Positions 31,277 to 41,500 of a DNA stretch of 64,000 nt are shown here, one piece after another. Positions within the stretch are counted from its first letter, which is position 1. Each line of letters starts with the position of its first letter. This DNA is from Halarcobacter sp. (GTDB lineage: Bacteria; Campylobacterota; Campylobacteria; Campylobacterales; Arcobacteraceae). The stretch covers positions 682,001-746,000 of the forward strand of contig NZ_OY780939.1 in the NCBI RefSeq assembly GCF_963675975.1. The letters are read 5' to 3'. Made by a program: the position numbers and the translations under genes. The notes below the pieces were generated by a model that worked only from the letters and a program-made list of their open reading frames with translations, had not been told where the DNA came from and did no database searches.

Positions 31277-31690
31277 ATGGTCTATTTAACTCTGTTTTTT
31301 TCAGCTTTTCTTTCAGCCACATTTTTCCCTTTTGGAAGTGAAGCCGTACTTATTTATGATATTTTACAAGGCTACAATATTTATTATCTTCTTTTATTTG
31401 CAACCATAGGAAATACCTTAGGTTCAATTGTAAACTATGTTTTAGGATACAAGGGAGAAGAGTTTTTAGAAAGAAAAAACTTGCTTAAAAGGGAAAAGAT
31501 AGATAAGTATATAAAGTTTTTCTCAAAATATGGGGGAGTTACACTTCTTTTAGCTTGGGCCCCAATTATTGGAGACCCACTTACTTTTATTGCTGGGATT
31601 TTAAAATACGATTTTAAAAAGTTTTTGATTTTGGTTGCTATTTCTAAGTTTTCTAGATACTTATTTTTAGCACTAATCACTTTATATTAA
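31277..31690 (+). CDS. YqaA/DedA-family membrane protein
   Basis: A 137-residue membrane protein with about four helices and the SNARE-associated/VTT signature of the YqaA family: SATFFPFGSEAVLIYDIL, GNTLGSIVNYVLGY and WAPIIGDPLTFIAG. The role is unknown, perhaps in membrane lipid handling as for other DedA relatives. It overlaps the convergent ureG gene by nine bases. Confidence 0.88.
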   Translation: MVYLTLFFSAFLSATFFPFGSEAVLIYDILQGYNIYYLLLFATIGNTLGSIVNYVLGYKGEEFLERKNLLKREKIDKYIKFFSKYGGVTLLLAWAPIIGDPLTFIAGILKYDFKKFLILVAISKFSRYLFLALITLY

Positions 31691-32269
31691 AGCTTTAATC
31701 CACTCTTTTAGCTTATCAAAACTATTATCATCTTTGTTTGTTAGAAATATACTTGGTTTGTTTTTTCTACTGTTTTTTACATCCTCTTGATAGCTTTCTA
31801 AATCAACGTTTACAAAAGGACAAAGGTCAGTTTTGTTTACTACTAAAAGGTCAGAAAAAAGTAGTCCTGCACCTTTTTTTCTAGGAATATCTGCACCTTG
31901 AGCAACATCAATAACATAAAGATAATAATCAATTAGTTCATAAGAGAATGTAGCACTTAGATTGTCTCCACCACTTTCTACAAAGATAATATCTGGATTG
32001 AACTTTTCTTCAAGCTCTTCTACTGCTTTTTGATTCATCGAAATATCATCTCTAATTGCTGTGTGTGGGCAACCACCAGTTTCTACACCTATGATTTGCT
32101 CACTATTGATATCAAGTTTCTCTTTTAAGTAGTTTGCATCTTCTGTTGTATAGATATCGTTTGTAACAATACCAAGAGAGTATTCATCTTTTAAAATATT
32201 TGTTAGTTTTTCAATAATAGATGTTTTACCACTTCCAACTGGTCCTGCTATTCCTATTTTTATACTCAT
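31682..32269 (-). CDS. ureG: Urease accessory GTPase UreG
   Basis: A 195-residue GTPase that drives nickel insertion into urease together with UreE, UreF and UreD. The P-loop GPVGSGKT is at residues 9-16, the nickel-binding Cys-Pro-His motif is in GGCPHTAIRDD, and NKTD is present. It is the last gene of the ureAB-C-E-F-G unit and follows ureF after 15 bases. Confidence 0.97.
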   Translation of the reverse strand: MSIKIGIAGPVGSGKTSIIEKLTNILKDEYSLGIVTNDIYTTEDANYLKEKLDINSEQIIGVETGGCPHTAIRDDISMNQKAVEELEEKFNPDIIFVESGGDNLSATFSYELIDYYLYVIDVAQGADIPRKKGAGLLFSDLLVVNKTDLCPFVNVDLESYQEDVKNSRKNKPSIFLTNKDDNSFDKLKEWIKALI

Positions 32270-32284
32270 ATTTTATAATCCTTT

Positions 32285-32974
32285 TTATGTTGTAAACATT
32301 TTTGGTTCTAGATTAAGATGGCTGAAAATAACCTCTTCAAATAGAGGGTTGAAGTTACTTACTTTTCTAGAACTTTGTTGTATCTTTTCTTCTAAAATCT
32401 CATCAAAACTAAAAAGTATTTGTTGTATCTCACTTGGTTTTATTCTTGAGATTTTTAAACTTGCACTTGCTATATTTATTAAACTTTTTTTCGCCCAAAG
32501 AAGTAAAAATATATCTTCATCAAGTCCTAATTCATAAGCATAAGAGCTTAAAATAAATAGTTCATTTCCGTAAGATTCTTTATTTTTTACTTTTTCAAAG
32601 TAGCTTTTTACTATAGAGGTTTTTATATCAAAATCTATATGTTTTAGGTAGTTTTCACCTAAATCTTTAGAAGCTTTTGCCCACTCGTAACTTAGCATTG
32701 AAGCAAACTTTTTATCCTCTTTTAGAAGATGGTTTAGTTTTTCCTCTTTAAGTAGAGTAAATACCTTTTTTACTATAGTAAACTCCATCTTTTGGTATTG
32801 GTCCTCAATTATATTTTCAAGGAAGTTTTTTAGGCTTTCTTTGTCATTTACAAAACCTAAAACAATATGTGGTTCTAGCCCAAAAGAGTGTACAAAAGCT
32901 CCTGATGGAAAAACTCCATCAAGAAGTTGTATAAACCTACTTAAGGCTTTAGTGGGAGTGATGTGCATTTCCAT
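32285..32974 (-). CDS. ureF: Urease accessory protein UreF
   Basis: A 229-residue all-helical scaffold that binds UreD and the UreG dimer for nickel loading. Family motifs are LLDGVFPSGAFVHSFGLE at the N-terminus and SIVKSYFEKVKN later. Its start overlaps ureE by 26 bases; a second ATG two codons downstream is an equally possible start because neither has a strong ribosome-binding site. Expression is therefore probably coupled to ureE. Confidence 0.93.
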   Translation of the reverse strand: MEMHITPTKALSRFIQLLDGVFPSGAFVHSFGLEPHIVLGFVNDKESLKNFLENIIEDQYQKMEFTIVKKVFTLLKEEKLNHLLKEDKKFASMLSYEWAKASKDLGENYLKHIDFDIKTSIVKSYFEKVKNKESYGNELFILSSYAYELGLDEDIFLLLWAKKSLINIASASLKISRIKPSEIQQILFSFDEILEEKIQQSSRKVSNFNPLFEEVIFSHLNLEPKMFTT

Positions 32975-33383
32975 TTGGTTTGAAAATACCTCTGCTTTTT
33001 TGAACTTCTACTTTATCAATAGACTCACAAGCTTTTATAATATCAGCTGTTGAGATATCTTCTAAAATAGTTATTTTGTAATCTTCTATACAAATAGGTT
33101 GGTGTCTATTTCCTATTTCATAAGCAATTTTAGCAAATGTGATATGGTCACTAAAAGTTAGTGTATAGATTTCATCCTCAGATTTAGAAACTTTGATTTT
33201 ATATCCATCTTCACAAACTAGAATATCATTTTCATGAAGGTGAGTGTATTTTGCTTTTACAATAAACTCTCTACCCTCTTTTGATATTGCACATAAGTTT
33301 GGTTTTTGCATATCAAACCAGTCTAAAAGTACACTATCATTTGCCTCTTCATCTCTTCTAATTTCAGTTACTTTACAAATCAT
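32949..33383 (-). CDS. ureE: Urease accessory nickel chaperone UreE
   Basis: A 144-residue nickel metallochaperone. The conserved central GNRHQPICIED with its His ligand is present, and the C-terminus ends in the His-containing GNAHHSH. It sits between ureC and ureF with overlaps or short gaps on the same strand. Length is typical. Confidence 0.95.
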   Translation of the reverse strand: MICKVTEIRRDEEANDSVLLDWFDMQKPNLCAISKEGREFIVKAKYTHLHENDILVCEDGYKIKVSKSEDEIYTLTFSDHITFAKIAYEIGNRHQPICIEDYKITILEDISTADIIKACESIDKVEVQKSRGIFKPNGNAHHSH

Positions 33384-33395
33384 TTTAATAAACTC

Positions 33396-35099
33396 CTAGA
33401 ATAAGAAATATTTCTTAGCCATTGGTAACTCTTCTTGGAAAGATGATTCTATAATCTCACCATTAACTTTTACATCATAAGTTTCTGGATCAACTTCAAT
33501 ATCTCCAATAAAGTCATTTAGCTTCATATCTTTTTTACCAATATTTCTAGTGTTTTTAACTGGCAACATCACTTTTTTAGTATCAAGATGCTCTTCTAAA
33601 CCTTTATCTAAAGCTAAGTGAGATACAAAAATTGCACTTGTATTAGCTGCTGCTTTACCTAAGCTTCCAAACATTGGTCTATACATATTTGGTTCTGGTG
33701 TTGGAATAGATGCATTACTATCACCCATCATTGCTAAAGCTATAAATCCACCTTTTATGATAATCTCTGGTTTAACACCAAAAAATGCCGGAGTCCAAAG
33801 TACTAAGTCAGCCATTTTACCAACTTCTACACTTCCTACATGCTCATCAATACCACAAGCAATAGCAGGGTTTATAGTGTATTTTGCAACAAATCTTTTG
33901 ATTCTTTCGTTATCACTTAGTTCATCATCACCTTCAAGTGCACCTCTTTGTTTTTTCATAGAGTCTGCTACTTGCCAAGTTCTTGTTACTACTTCACCTA
34001 CTCTTCCCATAGCTTGTGAATCTGAACTTGTAATTGAGATTGCTCCAATATCGTGTAGTACATCTTCAGCTGCAATAGTTTTACCTCTGATTCTAGATTC
34101 TGCAAAACTTACATCTTCTGGAATCTTTGAACTTAAGTGGTGACAAACCATAAGCATATCAAGGTGTTCTTCTATTGTGTTTCTTGTATATGGTAAAGTT
34201 GGGTTTGTACTTGATGGTAAGATATTAGCAAGTCCTGCAACTTTCATAATATCAGGTGCGTGACCACCTCCAGCTCCTTCAGAGTGGAATGTATGGATAG
34301 TTCTTCCACCAAAAGCATTTACAGTGTTATCTACAAAACCTGATTCATTTAAAGTATCTGTGTGAATTGCAACTTGAACATCAAAATCATCTGCAACTTT
34401 TAAACAAGTATCAATAGCATTTGGAGTTGTTCCCCAGTCTTCGTGAAGTTTTAATCCCATAGCCCCAGCTTCAATTTGCACTTTTAGAGCTTCATAATTT
34501 GAGCTGTTTCCTTTACCCATAAAACCAAAGTTTAATGGTAAGTCATCAACTGCTTCAATCATTTTGTGGATGTTAAATTCACCTGGAGTACAAGTTGTAG
34601 CATTTGTTCCTGTATTAGGCCCTGTACCACCTCCAATCATAGTTGTAACACCACTTGCTAGTGCTTCATCTATTTGACCTGGGCTTATAAAGTGAATATG
34701 TGAGTCAATTCCACCAGCAGTGATGATTTTACCCTCTGCTGAAAGAATCTCAGTGTTTGCACCAATCTCTAAACCTTCAGTTATCCCATCGCAGTTGTAT
34801 GGATTTCCAGATTTTCCAATAGCAGAAATCTTTCCATCTTTGATGCCAATATCAGCTTTGTAAATACCAGTATAATCAATAATTACAGCATTTGTGATGA
34901 TAACATCAGCAGTTTCAACTGCTAGTGGAGATTGGCTCATCCCATCTCTAATAGTTTTACCACCACCAAATTTTGATTCTTCACCATAAGTTGTATAATC
35001 TTTTTCAATCTTTGCTACTAAAGAAGTATCAGCTAATCTAAATCTATCACCAGTTGTTGGTCCATACATTGATGCATATTTTGCTTTAGAAATTTTCAT
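33396..35099 (-). CDS. ureC: Urease subunit alpha
   Basis: The catalytic 567-residue subunit of urease; hydrolyses urea to ammonia and carbamate at a dinickel centre. Metal ligands His134/His136 (DSHIHF), the carbamylated Lys217 (GLKLHEDWG), and the flap and catalytic histidine region MVCHHLS are all present. It corresponds to UreB in Helicobacter naming. Its start overlaps the ureAB stop by four bases. Confidence 0.98.
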
Positions 35100-35779
35100 A
35101 CTCTACTCCCTATAAAATCTGCTAAGTTTTTCATAGCTTTTTCTTTAGTTTCCTTTTCATCTAGGTAACCATTTGTCAGCCCATTAAATCCTGCAATATA
35201 TCTTTTACCTTTATATGGAACTACTTCAATCTCTTTTTTAGACCCTGGCTCAAATCTAACAGAAGTACCACTTGGGATATTTAGTCTTTGACCATAAGCT
35301 TTTTCTCTATCAAACTCTAAAAAAGCATTTGTTTCAAAGAAGTGGTAGTGTGAACCAACTTGAATTGGTCTATCTCCCACATTTTCTACTTCTATTGTAG
35401 TTACAGGTGCATTTTCATTTAGTTCAATCTCACCCTCATCTATGAAGTATTCCCCTGGAGTTACATCTGTTTTTGTTTCAGGAATTGGATTATGAACAGT
35501 TACTAGTTTTGTTCCATCATCAAAAGTAGCTTCTGTTTGAACCATATGCATCATAGATGCAACACCTGGCATAACATCTTCTGCTTTTAAAACTTTTGTT
35601 GCATCAACCATAAGTTGTGCAACACTTTTACCATCTCTAGCCCCTTCAAGTATAAAAGAACTGATAATAGCAGAAGCTTCGGGAAAGTTAAGTTTAAGTC
35701 CTCTTTCTTTTCTTTCCCAAGCTAGCTTAGAAGCTGTATAAATAAGCAGTTTTTCCTGCTCACGGTTTGTTAAAAACAT
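35096..35779 (-). CDS. ureAB: Urease subunit gamma-beta fusion
   Basis: A 227-residue fusion of the small urease subunits: gamma (about residues 1-100, with [15 protein letters not shown]) and beta (about 105-227, with [16 protein letters not shown] and [11 protein letters not shown]). The same fusion is called UreA in Helicobacter. GGGAGG stands seven bases before the ATG. The upstream gap contains an AT-rich TATAAG-like region, so this is the likely start of the ure transcript. Confidence 0.96.
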
Positions 35780-35865: not shown

Positions 35866-36519
35866 TTATATAATACTTTCTTTATATTCTCTTCTATATC
35901 TATGTAAAAGTGGTTCTGTGTAACCTGCTGGTTGCTCTTTACCTTCAAATATTAAAGCATAAGCTGCTTTAAATGCATATCCATCATAAGTTGGTGCCAT
36001 ATTTATATAACTTGCATCTTTTTTATTTTGTTTATCAACAACTTTTGCCATCTGTTTTAAAGACTCTAAAACTTCCTCTTTTGTACAAACTCCATGCTCA
36101 ATCCAGTTTGCAAGATGTTGAGAAGAGATTCTAAGTGTTGCTCTATCTTCCATAAGTGCCACATTGTTTATGTCTGGAACTTTAGAACACCCAATACCTG
36201 CATCAATCCATCTAACAACATATCCTAAGATACTTTGGCAGTTGTTATCTACTTCATTTTTGATAGTCTCTTCTGATAAATCTTCTTTTAGTAATGGAAT
36301 AGTTAAAAGTTCATCAATACTTGCTCTTCTTTTCCCTTTTAACTCATTTTGGATACTTAATACATCAACTTTATGATAATGCATCGAGTGTAAAGTTGCA
36401 GCTGTAGGAGATGGTACCCAAGCAGTATTTGCTCCAGATTTAGGATGAGATATTTTTTCAACCATCATTTTTGCCATCTCATCTGGCATTGCCCACATAC
36501 CTTTTCCAATTTGAGAGAA
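35866..36519 (-). pseudogene. glcB: Malate synthase G, C-terminal remnant
   Basis: The C-terminal ~215 residues of malate synthase G (condenses glyoxylate and acetyl-CoA to malate). They contain [47 protein letters not shown] and [13 protein letters not shown]. The normal protein is about 720 residues, so the N-terminal two thirds, with most of the active-site barrel, are gone. Homology runs up to GFSQIGKG at about 36519, where the sequence passes directly into a divergent ABC ATPase remnant; an in-frame stop lies just beyond. It cannot be active. Confidence 0.88.
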
Positions 36520-36959
36520 ACCTTGAATGTGATGTTATCTCCAAGATTAATACTTGGAAAAAGTAAAGAAGAAGCAAAAGAACTAGCAATGCAATGTCTA
36601 AAAAAAGTTGGAATGGATCAATTTTTTGACCAATATCCAGAAAGTTTATCAGGTGGACAAAAACAAAGAGTTGCTATTGCAAGATCTTTAGCAATGTCTC
36701 CAAAAGTATTACTTTGTGATGAGATTACATCTGCTCTTGACCCTGAATTGGTTGGGGAAGTTTTAAAGGTTTTAGAATCCTTAGCTAAAGAGGGAATTAC
36801 TTTGATATTAGTTACTCATGAGATGAACTTTGCAAGAGACATTGGAGATAGAGTTATTTTTATGCATAATGGTAAAATTTGGGAAACAGGTGAAAGTGAA
36901 GAGGTTTTTGCCAATCCTCAACAGATGAATTAAAAAACTTTTTATCTTCAGTATTATAA
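36520..36959 (+). pseudogene. Polar amino acid ABC transporter ATPase (GlnQ-type), remnant
   Basis: The C-terminal part of a GlnQ/HisP-type ATPase from [20 protein letters not shown] through the signature LSGGQKQRVAIARSLA, Walker B VLLCDEIT and the switch LVTHEMNFARD. The N-terminal part with Walker A is missing, cut at the junction with the malate synthase remnant. A one-base deletion near 36920 ends the frame early (ANPQQMN-stop); restoring an A gives the family C-terminus TDELKNFLSSVL ending at 36959. It is doubly inactivated. Confidence 0.88.
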
Positions 36960-37133: not shown

Positions 37134-38093
37134 ATGAGATTAAGTTCAATTTTTAAAAGTGCTCTTATGTCAACACTTTTAGTATCTTCTGCTTTACAAG
37201 CAAAATCTGTTTATATTGCAACAACTGCAATTGTGGAACATCCAGCACTAGATGCTGTAAGAGATGGAGTTAAGAAAACATTAAATGACAATGGTTATAG
37301 TGGTGATAATCTTAAATTTACTTATGAAAGTGCTCAGGGAAAACCTGATATTGCTTCACAAATTGCTAGAAAAATGGTAGGTGAAAAACCTGATATTATT
37401 GTTGCAATTGCAACACCATCAGCTCAAGCAGCAGTTACTGCTACAAAAACAATTCCAGTTGTATTCTCAGCAGTTACAGATCCATTAGCAGCAAAACTTG
37501 TTCCAAGTTTAGAAAAACCAGGTGGAAATGTTACAGGATTATCTGATATGGCTAATATTAAAGAACATTTTTCTTTAATTAAAGAGTTTGTACCTAATCT
37601 TAAAGTGATTGGTATTCCATATAATCCAGGTGAAGCAAATGCAGTTTCGATGCTTGACAGTGCAAAAGTTGTAGCAGAAGAAATGGGTATTAAAATTGTA
37701 GAAGCAGCAGCTCCAAAATCTTCAGATGTAATGATTGCAGCAAAACAATTAGTTGGAAAAGCAGATGCTATTTATTGCCCAATTGATAATACAATTATCT
37801 CAGCTGTTGAATCAGTTATAAAAGTTGGTATTGATGCACAAGTTCCAGTATTTGCAGGTGATACAAGTACAGTTGAAAGAGGTGCAATTGCAGCTGTTGG
37901 ATATAACTATTTTGATTTAGGTCGTCAAACAGGAGATATCGTTTTAAGAATTTTAAAAGGTGAAAAACCAGGTTCAATTGATGTGAAAATGGCAAAGGGA
38001 ACAGATCTTTATGTTAACCCAAAAATGGCTAAAAAAATGGGAATTGAAGTTCCAAAAGCGGTACTTGAAAAAGCTACTAAAGTTGTAAAATAA
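37134..38093 (+). CDS. ABC transporter substrate-binding protein (TrpX-like)
   Basis: A 319-residue periplasmic binding protein with a signal peptide (LMSTLLVSSALQAKS), of the ABC_sub_bind family. Motifs are DIASQIARKMVGEKPDIIVAI split over two helices, VVFSAVTDPLAA and PVFAGDTSTVERGAIAAVGY. The family includes TrpX-type proteins linked to aromatic amino acid uptake in Gram-positives; the substrate here is unknown. TAAGGAA precedes the ATG, and the leader holds a CTTAAAAA/TTTTTAAG hairpin. It is first in a three-gene operon. Confidence 0.9.
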   Translation: MRLSSIFKSALMSTLLVSSALQAKSVYIATTAIVEHPALDAVRDGVKKTLNDNGYSGDNLKFTYESAQGKPDIASQIARKMVGEKPDIIVAIATPSAQAAVTATKTIPVVFSAVTDPLAAKLVPSLEKPGGNVTGLSDMANIKEHFSLIKEFVPNLKVIGIPYNPGEANAVSMLDSAKVVAEEMGIKIVEAAAPKSSDVMIAAKQLVGKADAIYCPIDNTIISAVESVIKVGIDAQVPVFAGDTSTVERGAIAAVGYNYFDLGRQTGDIVLRILKGEKPGSIDVKMAKGTDLYVNPKMAKKMGIEVPKAVLEKATKVVK

Positions 38094-38108
38094 TAAAAAG
38101 TTGTTAAT

Positions 38109-39011
38109 TTGTCACTATATGCTTTTTTAGGAACCCTTGAGATAGGGTTTATTTATGGGTTAGTTGCTATGGGAGTCTATCTTACTTTTCGTATTTTAGA
38201 TTTTCCAGATTTAACTGTTGATGGAAGTTTTACACTAGGAGCAGCTGCAACAGCTGCTCTTATAGTTTCTGGAGTTAATCCTTATTTATCAACTTTATTA
38301 GGTACACTTGCAGCAGCAAGTGCAGGTATTGTTACAGCTTGGTTAAATTTACGTTTTAATATTCTTCATCTACTTGCAAGTATTCTTACAATGACAGCTT
38401 TATATACGATAAATCTTCGTGTAATGGGAAAACCAAATCTTGCTTTAATTATGGAGCCTACAGTTTTAACTCCATTTGAGGATTTAGGAATTCCAGCTAT
38501 GTATTTAAAAGTTATATTTGTAGCTGTGTGTGCTCTTATTGGGGGCTTATTATTAGCATGGTTTTTATATACTCAATATGGTTTAGCAATGAGAGCAGTT
38601 GGTTCTAATAAAAGAATGGCTCAAGCAAATGGTATTGTTGTAAAAGAAAAAGTTTATGTGGGACTAGCTTTATCAAATGGTTTAGTAGGACTTGCAGGGG
38701 CTTTATTTGCTCAAACAAGTGGTTTTGCTGATTCAACAATGGGGATTGGAACTATTGTTGTAGGGCTTGCTGCAGTTATTATAGGTGAATCTTTATTTGG
38801 AACAAAATCTATGTTAGTTGTTGTATTAAGTTGTATTATTGGTTCTCTTCTTTATAGAATTGCAGTTTCAATGGCACTTAACGCAGACTTTTTAGGTTTC
38901 CAAGCTTCTGATTTAAACTTGCTTACAGCTGTGCTTGTTACCTTATCATTAATATTCCCAAAATTACGTAGTGAATATAAAGCGAAAAAAGCAAAAAGGA
39001 AAAAAGCATGA
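38109..39011 (+). CDS. ABC transporter permease (TrpY-like)
   Basis: A 300-residue permease of the branched-chain amino acid type, with about eight membrane helices and the motifs FPDLTVDGSFTLGAAATAA and ALSNGLVGLAGALFAQ. The start is a TTG 16 bases after the preceding stop. It works with the binding protein upstream and the ATPase downstream, whose ATG overlaps its stop. Confidence 0.9.
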   Translation: MSLYAFLGTLEIGFIYGLVAMGVYLTFRILDFPDLTVDGSFTLGAAATAALIVSGVNPYLSTLLGTLAAASAGIVTAWLNLRFNILHLLASILTMTALYTINLRVMGKPNLALIMEPTVLTPFEDLGIPAMYLKVIFVAVCALIGGLLLAWFLYTQYGLAMRAVGSNKRMAQANGIVVKEKVYVGLALSNGLVGLAGALFAQTSGFADSTMGIGTIVVGLAAVIIGESLFGTKSMLVVVLSCIIGSLLYRIAVSMALNADFLGFQASDLNLLTAVLVTLSLIFPKLRSEYKAKKAKRKKA

Positions 39012-39811
39012 TTTGTTGTAAGGATTTACATGTTACTTTTAATCATGGCTTAGCAACTGAAAAGTTAGCTTTAAGAGGTGTTGATTTAACTATACCTGCA
39101 GGTCAATTTGTAACTGTTATTGGTTCTAATGGTGCAGGAAAATCAACTTTACTTAATACAATTGCAGGTGATATTGAAGCAACACATGGACAAATATTTT
39201 TTAATGACAGAGATGTAACAGCTTTACCGGCAACTGGTCGTACAAAAGATATTGCAAGAGTATTTCAAGATCCTCTTGCTGGAACTTGTGGTGATTTAAC
39301 AGTTGAAGAGAATATGGCTTTAGCTTATGGTAGAGGAAAAAGAGGTACTTTATCTTTTGCATTAAATAGTAAACTTAGAAAACTTTTCCAAGAACAATTA
39401 AGTAGACTAAATCTAGGTTTGGAAGATAGATTAAACTCTCAAATGGGACTTTTATCAGGAGGTCAGCGACAATCAGTTAGTCTTTTAATGTCTGCTTTAC
39501 AACCAAGTAGTATTTTATTACTAGATGAACATACAGCAGCATTAGACCCTAAAACGGCAGCTCTTATTATGGATATTACTTCACAAATTATTGAAGAGAA
39601 ATCATTAACAGTAATGATGGTAACTCACTCTATGAGACAAGCTTTAGACCATGGTAGTAGAACTATCATGCTACATGAAGGTAAAATTATCTTTGATTTA
39701 GAAGGTAAAGAAAGATCTAAATATGAGGTAAAAGATCTACTTAACTTATTTGCTCTTGCTAGAGAAGATGGCGAAGAGTTGGATGACGATAAACTATTAT
39801 TAGACAGTTAG
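39008..39811 (+). CDS. ABC transporter ATP-binding protein (TrpZ-like)
   Basis: A 267-residue ATPase with Walker A GSNGAGKST, Q-loop VFQDPLAGT, signature LSGGQRQSVSL, Walker B ILLLDEHTAALDP and switch His in VTHSMRQA. The DEHTAALDP form is typical of the TrpZ-like group. It overlaps the permease gene by four bases (ATGA) and ends in a hairpin terminator shared with the convergent ureD. Confidence 0.93.
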   Translation: MICCKDLHVTFNHGLATEKLALRGVDLTIPAGQFVTVIGSNGAGKSTLLNTIAGDIEATHGQIFFNDRDVTALPATGRTKDIARVFQDPLAGTCGDLTVEENMALAYGRGKRGTLSFALNSKLRKLFQEQLSRLNLGLEDRLNSQMGLLSGGQRQSVSLLMSALQPSSILLLDEHTAALDPKTAALIMDITSQIIEEKSLTVMMVTHSMRQALDHGSRTIMLHEGKIIFDLEGKERSKYEVKDLLNLFALAREDGEELDDDKLLLDS

Positions 39812-39836
39812 CATAGTTTTTTAACTATGTTACTGT
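39804..39836. terminator. Bidirectional hairpin between ABC operon and ureD
   Basis: ACAGT..CATAGTT pairs with AACTATG..ACTGT around TTTT, between two convergent genes and overlapping both stop codons. Confidence 0.7.
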
Positions 39837-40579
39837 TTCCCTAAGTTAAACTCTTTTTTATCAATATTTTTTCTATATATATTCCAAATCTCTTTTTGAA
39901 GCTTTTTTATTTTTATCATGTCATTTGCTGATATTGAACCTAAAATCATATTTTTTGATTTTGAAAAAGTAAAAGAATCAAAACCCTCTTTATGTAAAGT
40001 CTTTAAAAACTCTTCATTGTTTTTTGTTTTGATATAAAGTTTTAGATAAATATAGTTTTTGTTTTCATGTCTTTTTATATAATCTTTTAAATCTTTTCCT
40101 AATACTTCAAAGTTTTCGTAATACTCTAACTTTTTATTACAGAAGAATTTATTTCTAACTAGCATTGAATCAAAATCAAAATGCTCATAACTTCTACCTT
40201 GAGTTAAAATATCACTATAAAAGAATGTAGAGTTTTCATCTGCATCTATTCTAAGGATTTGTAGAAGTTTTGAATTTTTATATAATATTAGTTCATCATT
40301 TAAAAACTCTAAATTTGAATCTTTTAGTTTTATATTTATATAGTTGATACCAAAATCTTTTTTTGAAGGATAAACTTTTGTAGCGGATTCTGTAGTAAGA
40401 ATTGCATTTGAACTTTCAAGTAAGATATTTGTTTTTATTTTATCGTTTGGAAAAATTCCCTCACCTATGCTAAGAAGTTTTACATAGTTTTCTGTTTCAC
40501 TAAAATAATAGTATCTTGTTGGTAGTTGTAGTTTGTTTAGTGAAAACACTTCATTTTTAAAATCTATTGATATGCTCAT
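39830..40579 (-). CDS. ureD: Urease accessory protein UreD (UreH)
   Basis: A 249-residue urease maturation factor that bridges apo-urease and UreF-UreG. The conserved TTESATKVYP is clear, and the rest is divergent as usual for this family. It lies about 4 kb from the other urease genes, separated by the ABC transporter and the two remnants, although on the same strand. That gap probably reflects insertion or rearrangement within an ancestral ure cluster. Confidence 0.9.
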   Translation of the reverse strand: MSISIDFKNEVFSLNKLQLPTRYYYFSETENYVKLLSIGEGIFPNDKIKTNILLESSNAILTTESATKVYPSKKDFGINYINIKLKDSNLEFLNDELILYKNSKLLQILRIDADENSTFFYSDILTQGRSYEHFDFDSMLVRNKFFCNKKLEYYENFEVLGKDLKDYIKRHENKNYIYLKLYIKTKNNEEFLKTLHKEGFDSFTFSKSKNMILGSISANDMIKIKKLQKEIWNIYRKNIDKKEFNLGKQ

Positions 40580-40616: not shown

Positions 40617-41135
40617 CTAATCTCTTACTAAATAGATCTCTTCATCTTTCATATTATATTCTATTTGTTCTACTATTAATTTATCTTCTTTATTTGTTTC
40701 TGCTCTATCTAAAACAAAAAATTCTTCTTTATCTTTTATACAAATTAATGGGAAGTGCCAAACACCTTTATTGTAGTGAACACCTTGGTCTCCATTTGTT
40801 TCAAAAATTTCTAGTGTTGATAAGTCTGGTTCTCTTCCTCCTAATGCAACTGCACAGTAGAAAGGTTCTTTGCTTCTTGGTATAAATGTTTGGGAAAATA
40901 AAGGATGTTTTTCTAACATATCAATTAGTAATGGAAATTTTCTTTTATTTCCCACATATATATGTAAAGTGGTGATTCCACCTTTTTCATTTGTATCCAT
41001 ATTACAAATTTCATAAAACTTTTCAGCAGAGCCTCTATTTATCATCATAGAATCTCTTCCCTCTTTTTCGATAACTTCTCCAAACTTCTTAAAAGCTTCT
41101 TTTGTTAGAGGTTTTGGTTTTATCTCTATTTTCAT
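40617..41135 (-). CDS. allA: Ureidoglycolate lyase
   Basis: A 172-residue cupin enzyme that splits ureidoglycolate into urea and glyoxylate, the last step of allantoate breakdown. Family motifs are AFKKFGEVIEKEG, FIPRSKEPFYCAVALGG and GVHYNKGVWHFPLI. Its product urea is the substrate of the urease encoded nearby, and it is probably co-transcribed with ureD (37-base gap). No allantoinase or allantoate hydrolase is in the window. Confidence 0.92.
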   Translation of the reverse strand: MKIEIKPKPLTKEAFKKFGEVIEKEGRDSMMINRGSAEKFYEICNMDTNEKGGITTLHIYVGNKRKFPLLIDMLEKHPLFSQTFIPRSKEPFYCAVALGGREPDLSTLEIFETNGDQGVHYNKGVWHFPLICIKDKEEFFVLDRAETNKEDKLIVEQIEYNMKDEEIYLVRD

Positions 41136-41500
41136 CTTATACCTTTAACACATTTTCAATAATAAAACCCTAGTAAATACCTTGAGTATATAGGTTTAAT
41201 AAGCGTAATATTATCATAAATACAATTACAAGTAGACTATTTTTTCATACTTTCTAACTATATATAAAATTTAAACATGGCCTGTATAAAAAATAAACAT
41301 TGGCTGTGTACAATTATTGATAAAAAATATCTTTACAAAAATGTCACCAAGTTATAAAATACGATTAGAAAACATATATGAGGTACTAATCCTACTAATA
41401 AGTATCTCTTTGATGTTTTAAATATATTAACTCTTATCTTACAAGAGTGATGTCATTAAGTTGATTCAAATTGAATCTAAATATAAAACTAAGGAATAAC
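41136..41500. promoter_or_regulatory. Divergent control region allA / TRAP operon
   Basis: A 365-base gap with no gene. Near-direct repeats AAACATGGCCTGTATA (about 41274-41289) and AAACATTGGCTGTGTACA (about 41302-41320) could be regulator sites. A perfect palindrome GATTCAA-A-TTGAATC lies at 41463-41477 just before the ribosome-binding site of the TRAP binding protein. No sigma-54 element with correct GG-N10-GC spacing was found. Confidence 0.45.

Follow-up and report, generated by a model that had tools for sequence, protein, structure and literature searches.

The locus described here raises the question of how two divergent genes came to be broken at a single point, and what their host lost with them. 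The window (the whole stretch of DNA analysed, 64,000 nucleotides, G000:C1:682001-746000) belongs to a Halarcobacter genome of 3.27 Mb, which is a single contig and 99.97% complete. The junction region, window positions 36000-36900, was used as query against 41 genomes, the host among them. The genus set comprised 16 genomes including the host and the family set 104 genomes, with one genome per species. Both pieces were present on one contig and in the same orientation in four congeners (G010, G001, G006 and G015), and the genes of G010 (L029), a malate synthase G of 717 aa and an ATPase of 242 aa, served as references. The features of the region are as follows:

35096-35779, minus strand: ureAB, intact left flank of the presumably lost block.
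35866-36525, minus strand: remaining 3' part of glcB (malate synthase G), of 219 codons and a stop codon, from profile search and relatives.
36445-36933, plus strand: chimeric ORF of 162 aa, whose first 27 codons run antisense to glcB and the rest along the ATPase tail.
36525-36528, no strand: putative deletion junction, between left homology up to 36525 (or 36527) and right homology from 36526 on.
36526-36959, plus strand: distal portion of the ATPase gene of an amino-acid ABC transporter, from profile search and relatives.
37134-39811, plus strand: TrpX-like substrate-binding protein (below the model cut-off), permease and ATPase, intact right flank.
39830-40579, minus strand: ureD, urease accessory gene (PF01774), on the far side of the presumably lost block.
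40617-41135, minus strand: second ureidoglycolate lyase (allA) paralogue, retained near ureD, from family search.

The minus-strand piece matched the malate synthase G model NF002825 over positions 507-723 of 726 only (E 3.7e-117), with a score of 392.7 bits, below the cut-off of 565. Aligned to the full-length gene, it corresponds to residues 501 onward of the G010 protein, and an ATG at 36498 opens a 210-aa ORF within it. Alignment with 1d8c indicated that R338, E427 and D455 (E. coli numbering) are absent and D631 is kept; these we take to be the four catalytic residues of malate synthase, three of which are lost from the stump. Full length and the catalytic residues, the features by which a functional malate synthase G was recognized, are thus both wanting. 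The stump was the sole malate synthase match in the host genome. Seven congeners have glcB at full length, and ureAB adjoins the gene in the host as in all seven relatives compared.

The plus-strand piece starts at residue 99 of the 242 of the G010 ATPase. With residues 1-98 the Walker A motif (residues 36-44), by which a functional ABC ATPase was recognized, is gone, and LSGGQ and Walker B are retained. The EhuA, HisP, TcyN and GlnQ models matched the piece only from positions 97-112, all below their cut-offs and with similar scores (172, 171, 166 and 163 bits, respectively), so the name GlnQ-type, given to this ATPase in the preliminary description, is right only in a broad sense. With both profile matches confined to C-terminal parts, the same description was correct in recognizing two broken genes with a common breakpoint. 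In addition, compared with all four relatives, the ATPase stump lacks one A in a run of A at 36918-36922 (near 36920), which shifts the last 12 codons; the frame stops at 36933, about 8 codons ahead of the relatives' stop at 36957-36959. The absence of this base may be ancient, recent or an error of sequencing.

As judged from their sequences, both stumps are most likely dead and without function, and the ORF at 36445-36933 appears to be a chance chimera with no sign of being a gene of its own. It is extremely improbable that this ORF or that of the glcB stump is now a working gene: both frames are open and amino-acid changes in the ATPase stump are few, but the lack of Walker A, the base missing near the end and the loss of three of four catalytic residues speak against it, and the low change is explained by recency.

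The position of the join was refined with the relatives. The sequence GAGAGAAACCTTG is common to G001, G002 and the window, so the malate-synthase homology reaches 36525; after it G002 and G006 go on with AAG and G010, G001 and G015 with CA, and with an ancestral AA, like that of G002 and G006, the left homology would reach 36527. The ATPase homology begins at 36526 (AATGTGATG), the right side of the join reading GAAAATGT in the four relatives versus TTGAATGT in the window. The overlap is 0-2 bases, as the AA at 36526-36527 is assignable to either side. A breakpoint at 36519-36524 had been proposed; the exact place lies slightly to the right, at 36525-36528. Since an overlap of at least 2 bp is expected in about 20% of random joins (per-base match chance 0.287), the term "short-homology" deletion used before was too strong.

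Within 100 bp of either side of the breakpoints, the longest direct word was 6-7 bp in the four relatives, versus random means of 8.2-8.7 (27-29 random pairs per genome), and the longest inverted words were 7-8 bp, versus 8.1-8.4. Values for G002 were 8 bp (direct) and 9 bp (inverted), with random means, once this genome is included, of 8.2-8.8 and 8.0-8.4, respectively, but G002 lacks the ATPase side. No long repeat was thus detected at the join in the comparison with relatives, and no transposase-like frame was seen beside it when the ORF lists were read by eye, in agreement with the earlier observation of neither a long repeat nor an insertion sequence. Deletion mediated by repeats, homologous or slipped-strand, was rejected on account of the lack of a direct repeat at both breakpoints.

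Only the host gave a match across the junction, both among the 104 family genomes and among the 16 genus genomes. Any match at all was found in 15 of the 104, the other 14 having one side only or the two sides apart. The possibility of a junction common to sister species was rejected, as no other family genome gave a spanning match.

In the four congeners holding both pieces on one contig, both genes are of full length and the same orientation, and the two breakpoints are separated by 14,464 bp (G010), 14,586 bp (G001), 14,488 bp (G006) and 14,458 bp (G015). Gene order is alike in all of them: ureAB, glcB, allantoin-type permease, allA, allantoicase, puuE, gntR, racemase-family gene, livF, livG, livM, livH, liv-type substrate-binding protein (SBP), amino-acid SBP, two permeases and ATPase, the liv names being assigned by presumed resemblance. 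The intact divergent glcB and ATPase genes with others between them, which relatives had been expected to show, are therefore present, and the 14.5 kb between identical points in four of four bear out the proposal of a deletion between divergent genes. Before the deletion the two genes would not have been neighbours: the block presumed lost comprises the allantoin cluster, a Liv-type ABC operon and the remaining genes of the amino-acid ABC operon. In G010 it contains a PuuE allantoinase (TIGR03212) and an allantoicase (TIGR02961), both over cut-off, a ureidoglycolate lyase (PF04115 above cut-off, NCBIfam models below), a purine/allantoin permease (PF02133, allantoin-specific NCBIfam models below cut-off), an Asp/Glu/hydantoin racemase (PF01177) and a GntR-FCD regulator. 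The ATPase and trpX-like genes are about 1.4 kb apart in G015 and G006 (L032:16932-18353 and L031:17034-18448), versus about 0.15 kb in G010.

The comparison of breakpoints makes it very probable that the block between glcB and the ATPase gene, about 14.5 kb, went in one illegitimate deletion, presumably recent. The ancestor would have been arranged as G010, G001, G006 and G015 are today; a single event from about codon 500 of glcB to about codon 98 of the ATPase gene would have left the 3' ends of both genes as dead stumps, head to head, and would account for two genes being cut at one point. With an overlap of 0-2 bp, the mechanism was probably end joining independent of RecA and Ku, or a replication error. 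Ku (PF02735) was found in none of the 16 genus genomes and, among 14 control genomes, in one, B. subtilis, making classical bacterial end joining unlikely; joining by Ku/LigD was rejected for this reason.

The final junction is by itself equally compatible with one deletion or with several nested ones. An unlikely alternative is a series of deletions, or a rearrangement, whose final step alone is recorded in the join now seen. In favour of it, G002, G009 and G014 have glcB through the liv-type SBP and, in the stretches fetched, lack the amino-acid SBP/permease/ATPase module. In G009 the alignment shows the spacer alone (homology from 37033) and nothing of the ATPase tail. G014, a single-contig genome, retains about 110 bp from the very end of the ATPase gene (homologous to window 36848-36959) at L033:14608 to about 14718, adjoining the region upstream of the liv-type SBP gene, so the module can go by itself; this relic has small insertions and deletions of its own and is followed by the normal spacer and the trpX-like gene. 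On the other hand, the stumps of the host end at one point with no gene piece left between them, so that one event is enough, and the G014 scar cuts the ATPase gene elsewhere. By the alignment, G014 lost its ATPase module through another cut than the host, an independent scar in a different species, which shows that real genomes do lose this stretch.

The age of a single deletion was approached through substitutions in the stumps, counted on the host lineage and on a partner lineage with an outgroup. The counts (synonymous/non-synonymous) were as follows:

glcB stump, G010 with outgroup G006: host 28/11, partner 12/7.
glcB stump, G010 with outgroup G001: host 21/8, partner 24/12.
glcB stump, G010 with outgroup G009: host 15.5/10.5, partner 24.5/5.5.
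glcB stump, G002 with outgroup G009: host 19/10, partner 20/10.
glcB stump, G002 with outgroup G006: host 23/14, partner 18/6.
glcB stump, G015 with outgroup G006: host 27/11, partner 14/4.
ATPase stump, G010 with outgroup G006: host 14/0, partner 8/3.
ATPase stump, G010 with outgroup G001: host 11/1, partner 10/2.
ATPase stump, G015 with outgroup G006: host 40.5/18.5, partner 3/1 (set aside).

The last triple was not used further, as G015 and G006 are the closer pair in the ATPase gene. The non-synonymous share of the glcB stump on the host lineage is raised in four of six triples and lowered in two. Among the controls it is higher in five of six triples for the intact ureAB and in none of three for the trpX-like gene; given the ureAB result, the excess in the stump is no sign of decay. 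These triples assume a topology that varies by gene (in ureAB the host is nearest to G015), and gene exchange blurs them; ureC was outside the comparison, as within the stretches used only the host had enough of it.

By themselves the substitutions give no clear date. Taken together, the junction seen in the host alone, the few changes in the ATPase stump, the lack of excess in the glcB stump over ureAB and the one missing base point to a recent event. Stumps so little decayed fit a recent event, but also one in the laboratory or in the assembly. An assembly error, with the block still intact in the strain and two far-apart sites falsely joined by the assembler, would also agree with the presence of the block in all four relatives that keep both pieces. 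We consider it very unlikely: the host genome is a single contig of high completeness, the 14.5 kb were not found elsewhere in it among 40 scored of 478 first-look candidates, and with words of 6-7 bp at most and a join of 0-2 bp there is no common repeat to collapse. Nothing at the breakpoints would thus have misled the assembler; otherwise an error of assembly would have the same appearance as a recent event.

In that search, made with the 14.5-kb block of G010, the host genome gave a match to the allA paralogue (window 40625-41147, 523 bp, 76%) and 22 other short ones of 29-255 bases and 66-97% identity, the one at 97% being 29 bases long. Allantoicase was not found in the host in the search across the 16 genus genomes, nor was PuuE in a search run without a positive control. 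Transfer of the block to another place in the genome is not supported by the host searches for the block, malate synthase, allantoicase and PuuE. At the protein level, the retained AllA shares about 68% identity with the one encoded within the G010 block. The family is present in nine of the 16 genus genomes, with two copies in six of the seven cluster-bearing ones and a single copy in G015 (cluster-bearing), the host and G007 (without allantoicase). The urease genes left in the host are ureAB (profile search), ureC, ureE, ureF and ureG (frames read) and ureD (PF01774). They are split into two groups, ureAB to ureG at 31682-35779 and ureD at 39830-40579, with the region of the relatives' allantoin cluster between them; the deletion would have put the two groups nearer each other.

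Seven of the 15 congeners have both allantoicase and full-length malate synthase G, and the other eight have neither; in the host malate synthase G is present as the stump only. The isocitrate-lyase family is above cut-off in 16 of 16 genus genomes (56-65 bits), but its matches cover just 85-106 of 526 positions, in frames of 297-370 aa, presumably as expected of a methylisocitrate-lyase-type protein. Co-occurrence and adjacency suggest that glcB in this genus serves glyoxylate derived from allantoin and not the glyoxylate shunt. On balance, we slightly favour the view that glcB is the dedicated outlet of a self-contained module from allantoin to malate plus ammonia, placed among urease genes and kept or lost as a unit, and that the host has been caught just after its loss by a single cut. 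Malate synthase has been reported in A. anaerophilus IR-1 (PMC4584990); the terms isocitrate lyase, glyoxylate and allantoin are absent from the main text of that paper. Judged by titles and the openings of abstracts, no paper on allantoin in Arcobacter genomes was found in the literature searched.

From its gene content, the host should have lost allantoin use and malate synthase, with urease, its accessory genes and the second allA remaining. The loss should put an end to the breakdown of allantoin to glyoxylate and urea and to the use of that glyoxylate. The strain is predicted not to grow on allantoin and may still hydrolyse urea, and it should not be annotated with malate synthase or with this amino-acid transporter. 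The 16 genomes offer a natural series for the loss of a nitrogen-scavenging module: seven with the cluster, eight without it and one with a fresh scar.

In relatives, the whole allantoin catabolic set (PuuE, allantoicase, AllA and allantoin-type permease) lies beside urease and malate synthase G; in the host this set is missing, but for the second AllA paralogue and the urease genes. Illegitimate deletion, independent of RecA and with short or no homology, leaves truncated pseudogenes. The host resembles such deletions in general in having two genes cut at one point with the block between them gone, no long repeat and an overlap of 0-2 bp, and differs only by the particular genes affected, the size being about 14.5 kb. 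The scar is a fresh instance of a well-known, ordinary kind of gene loss.
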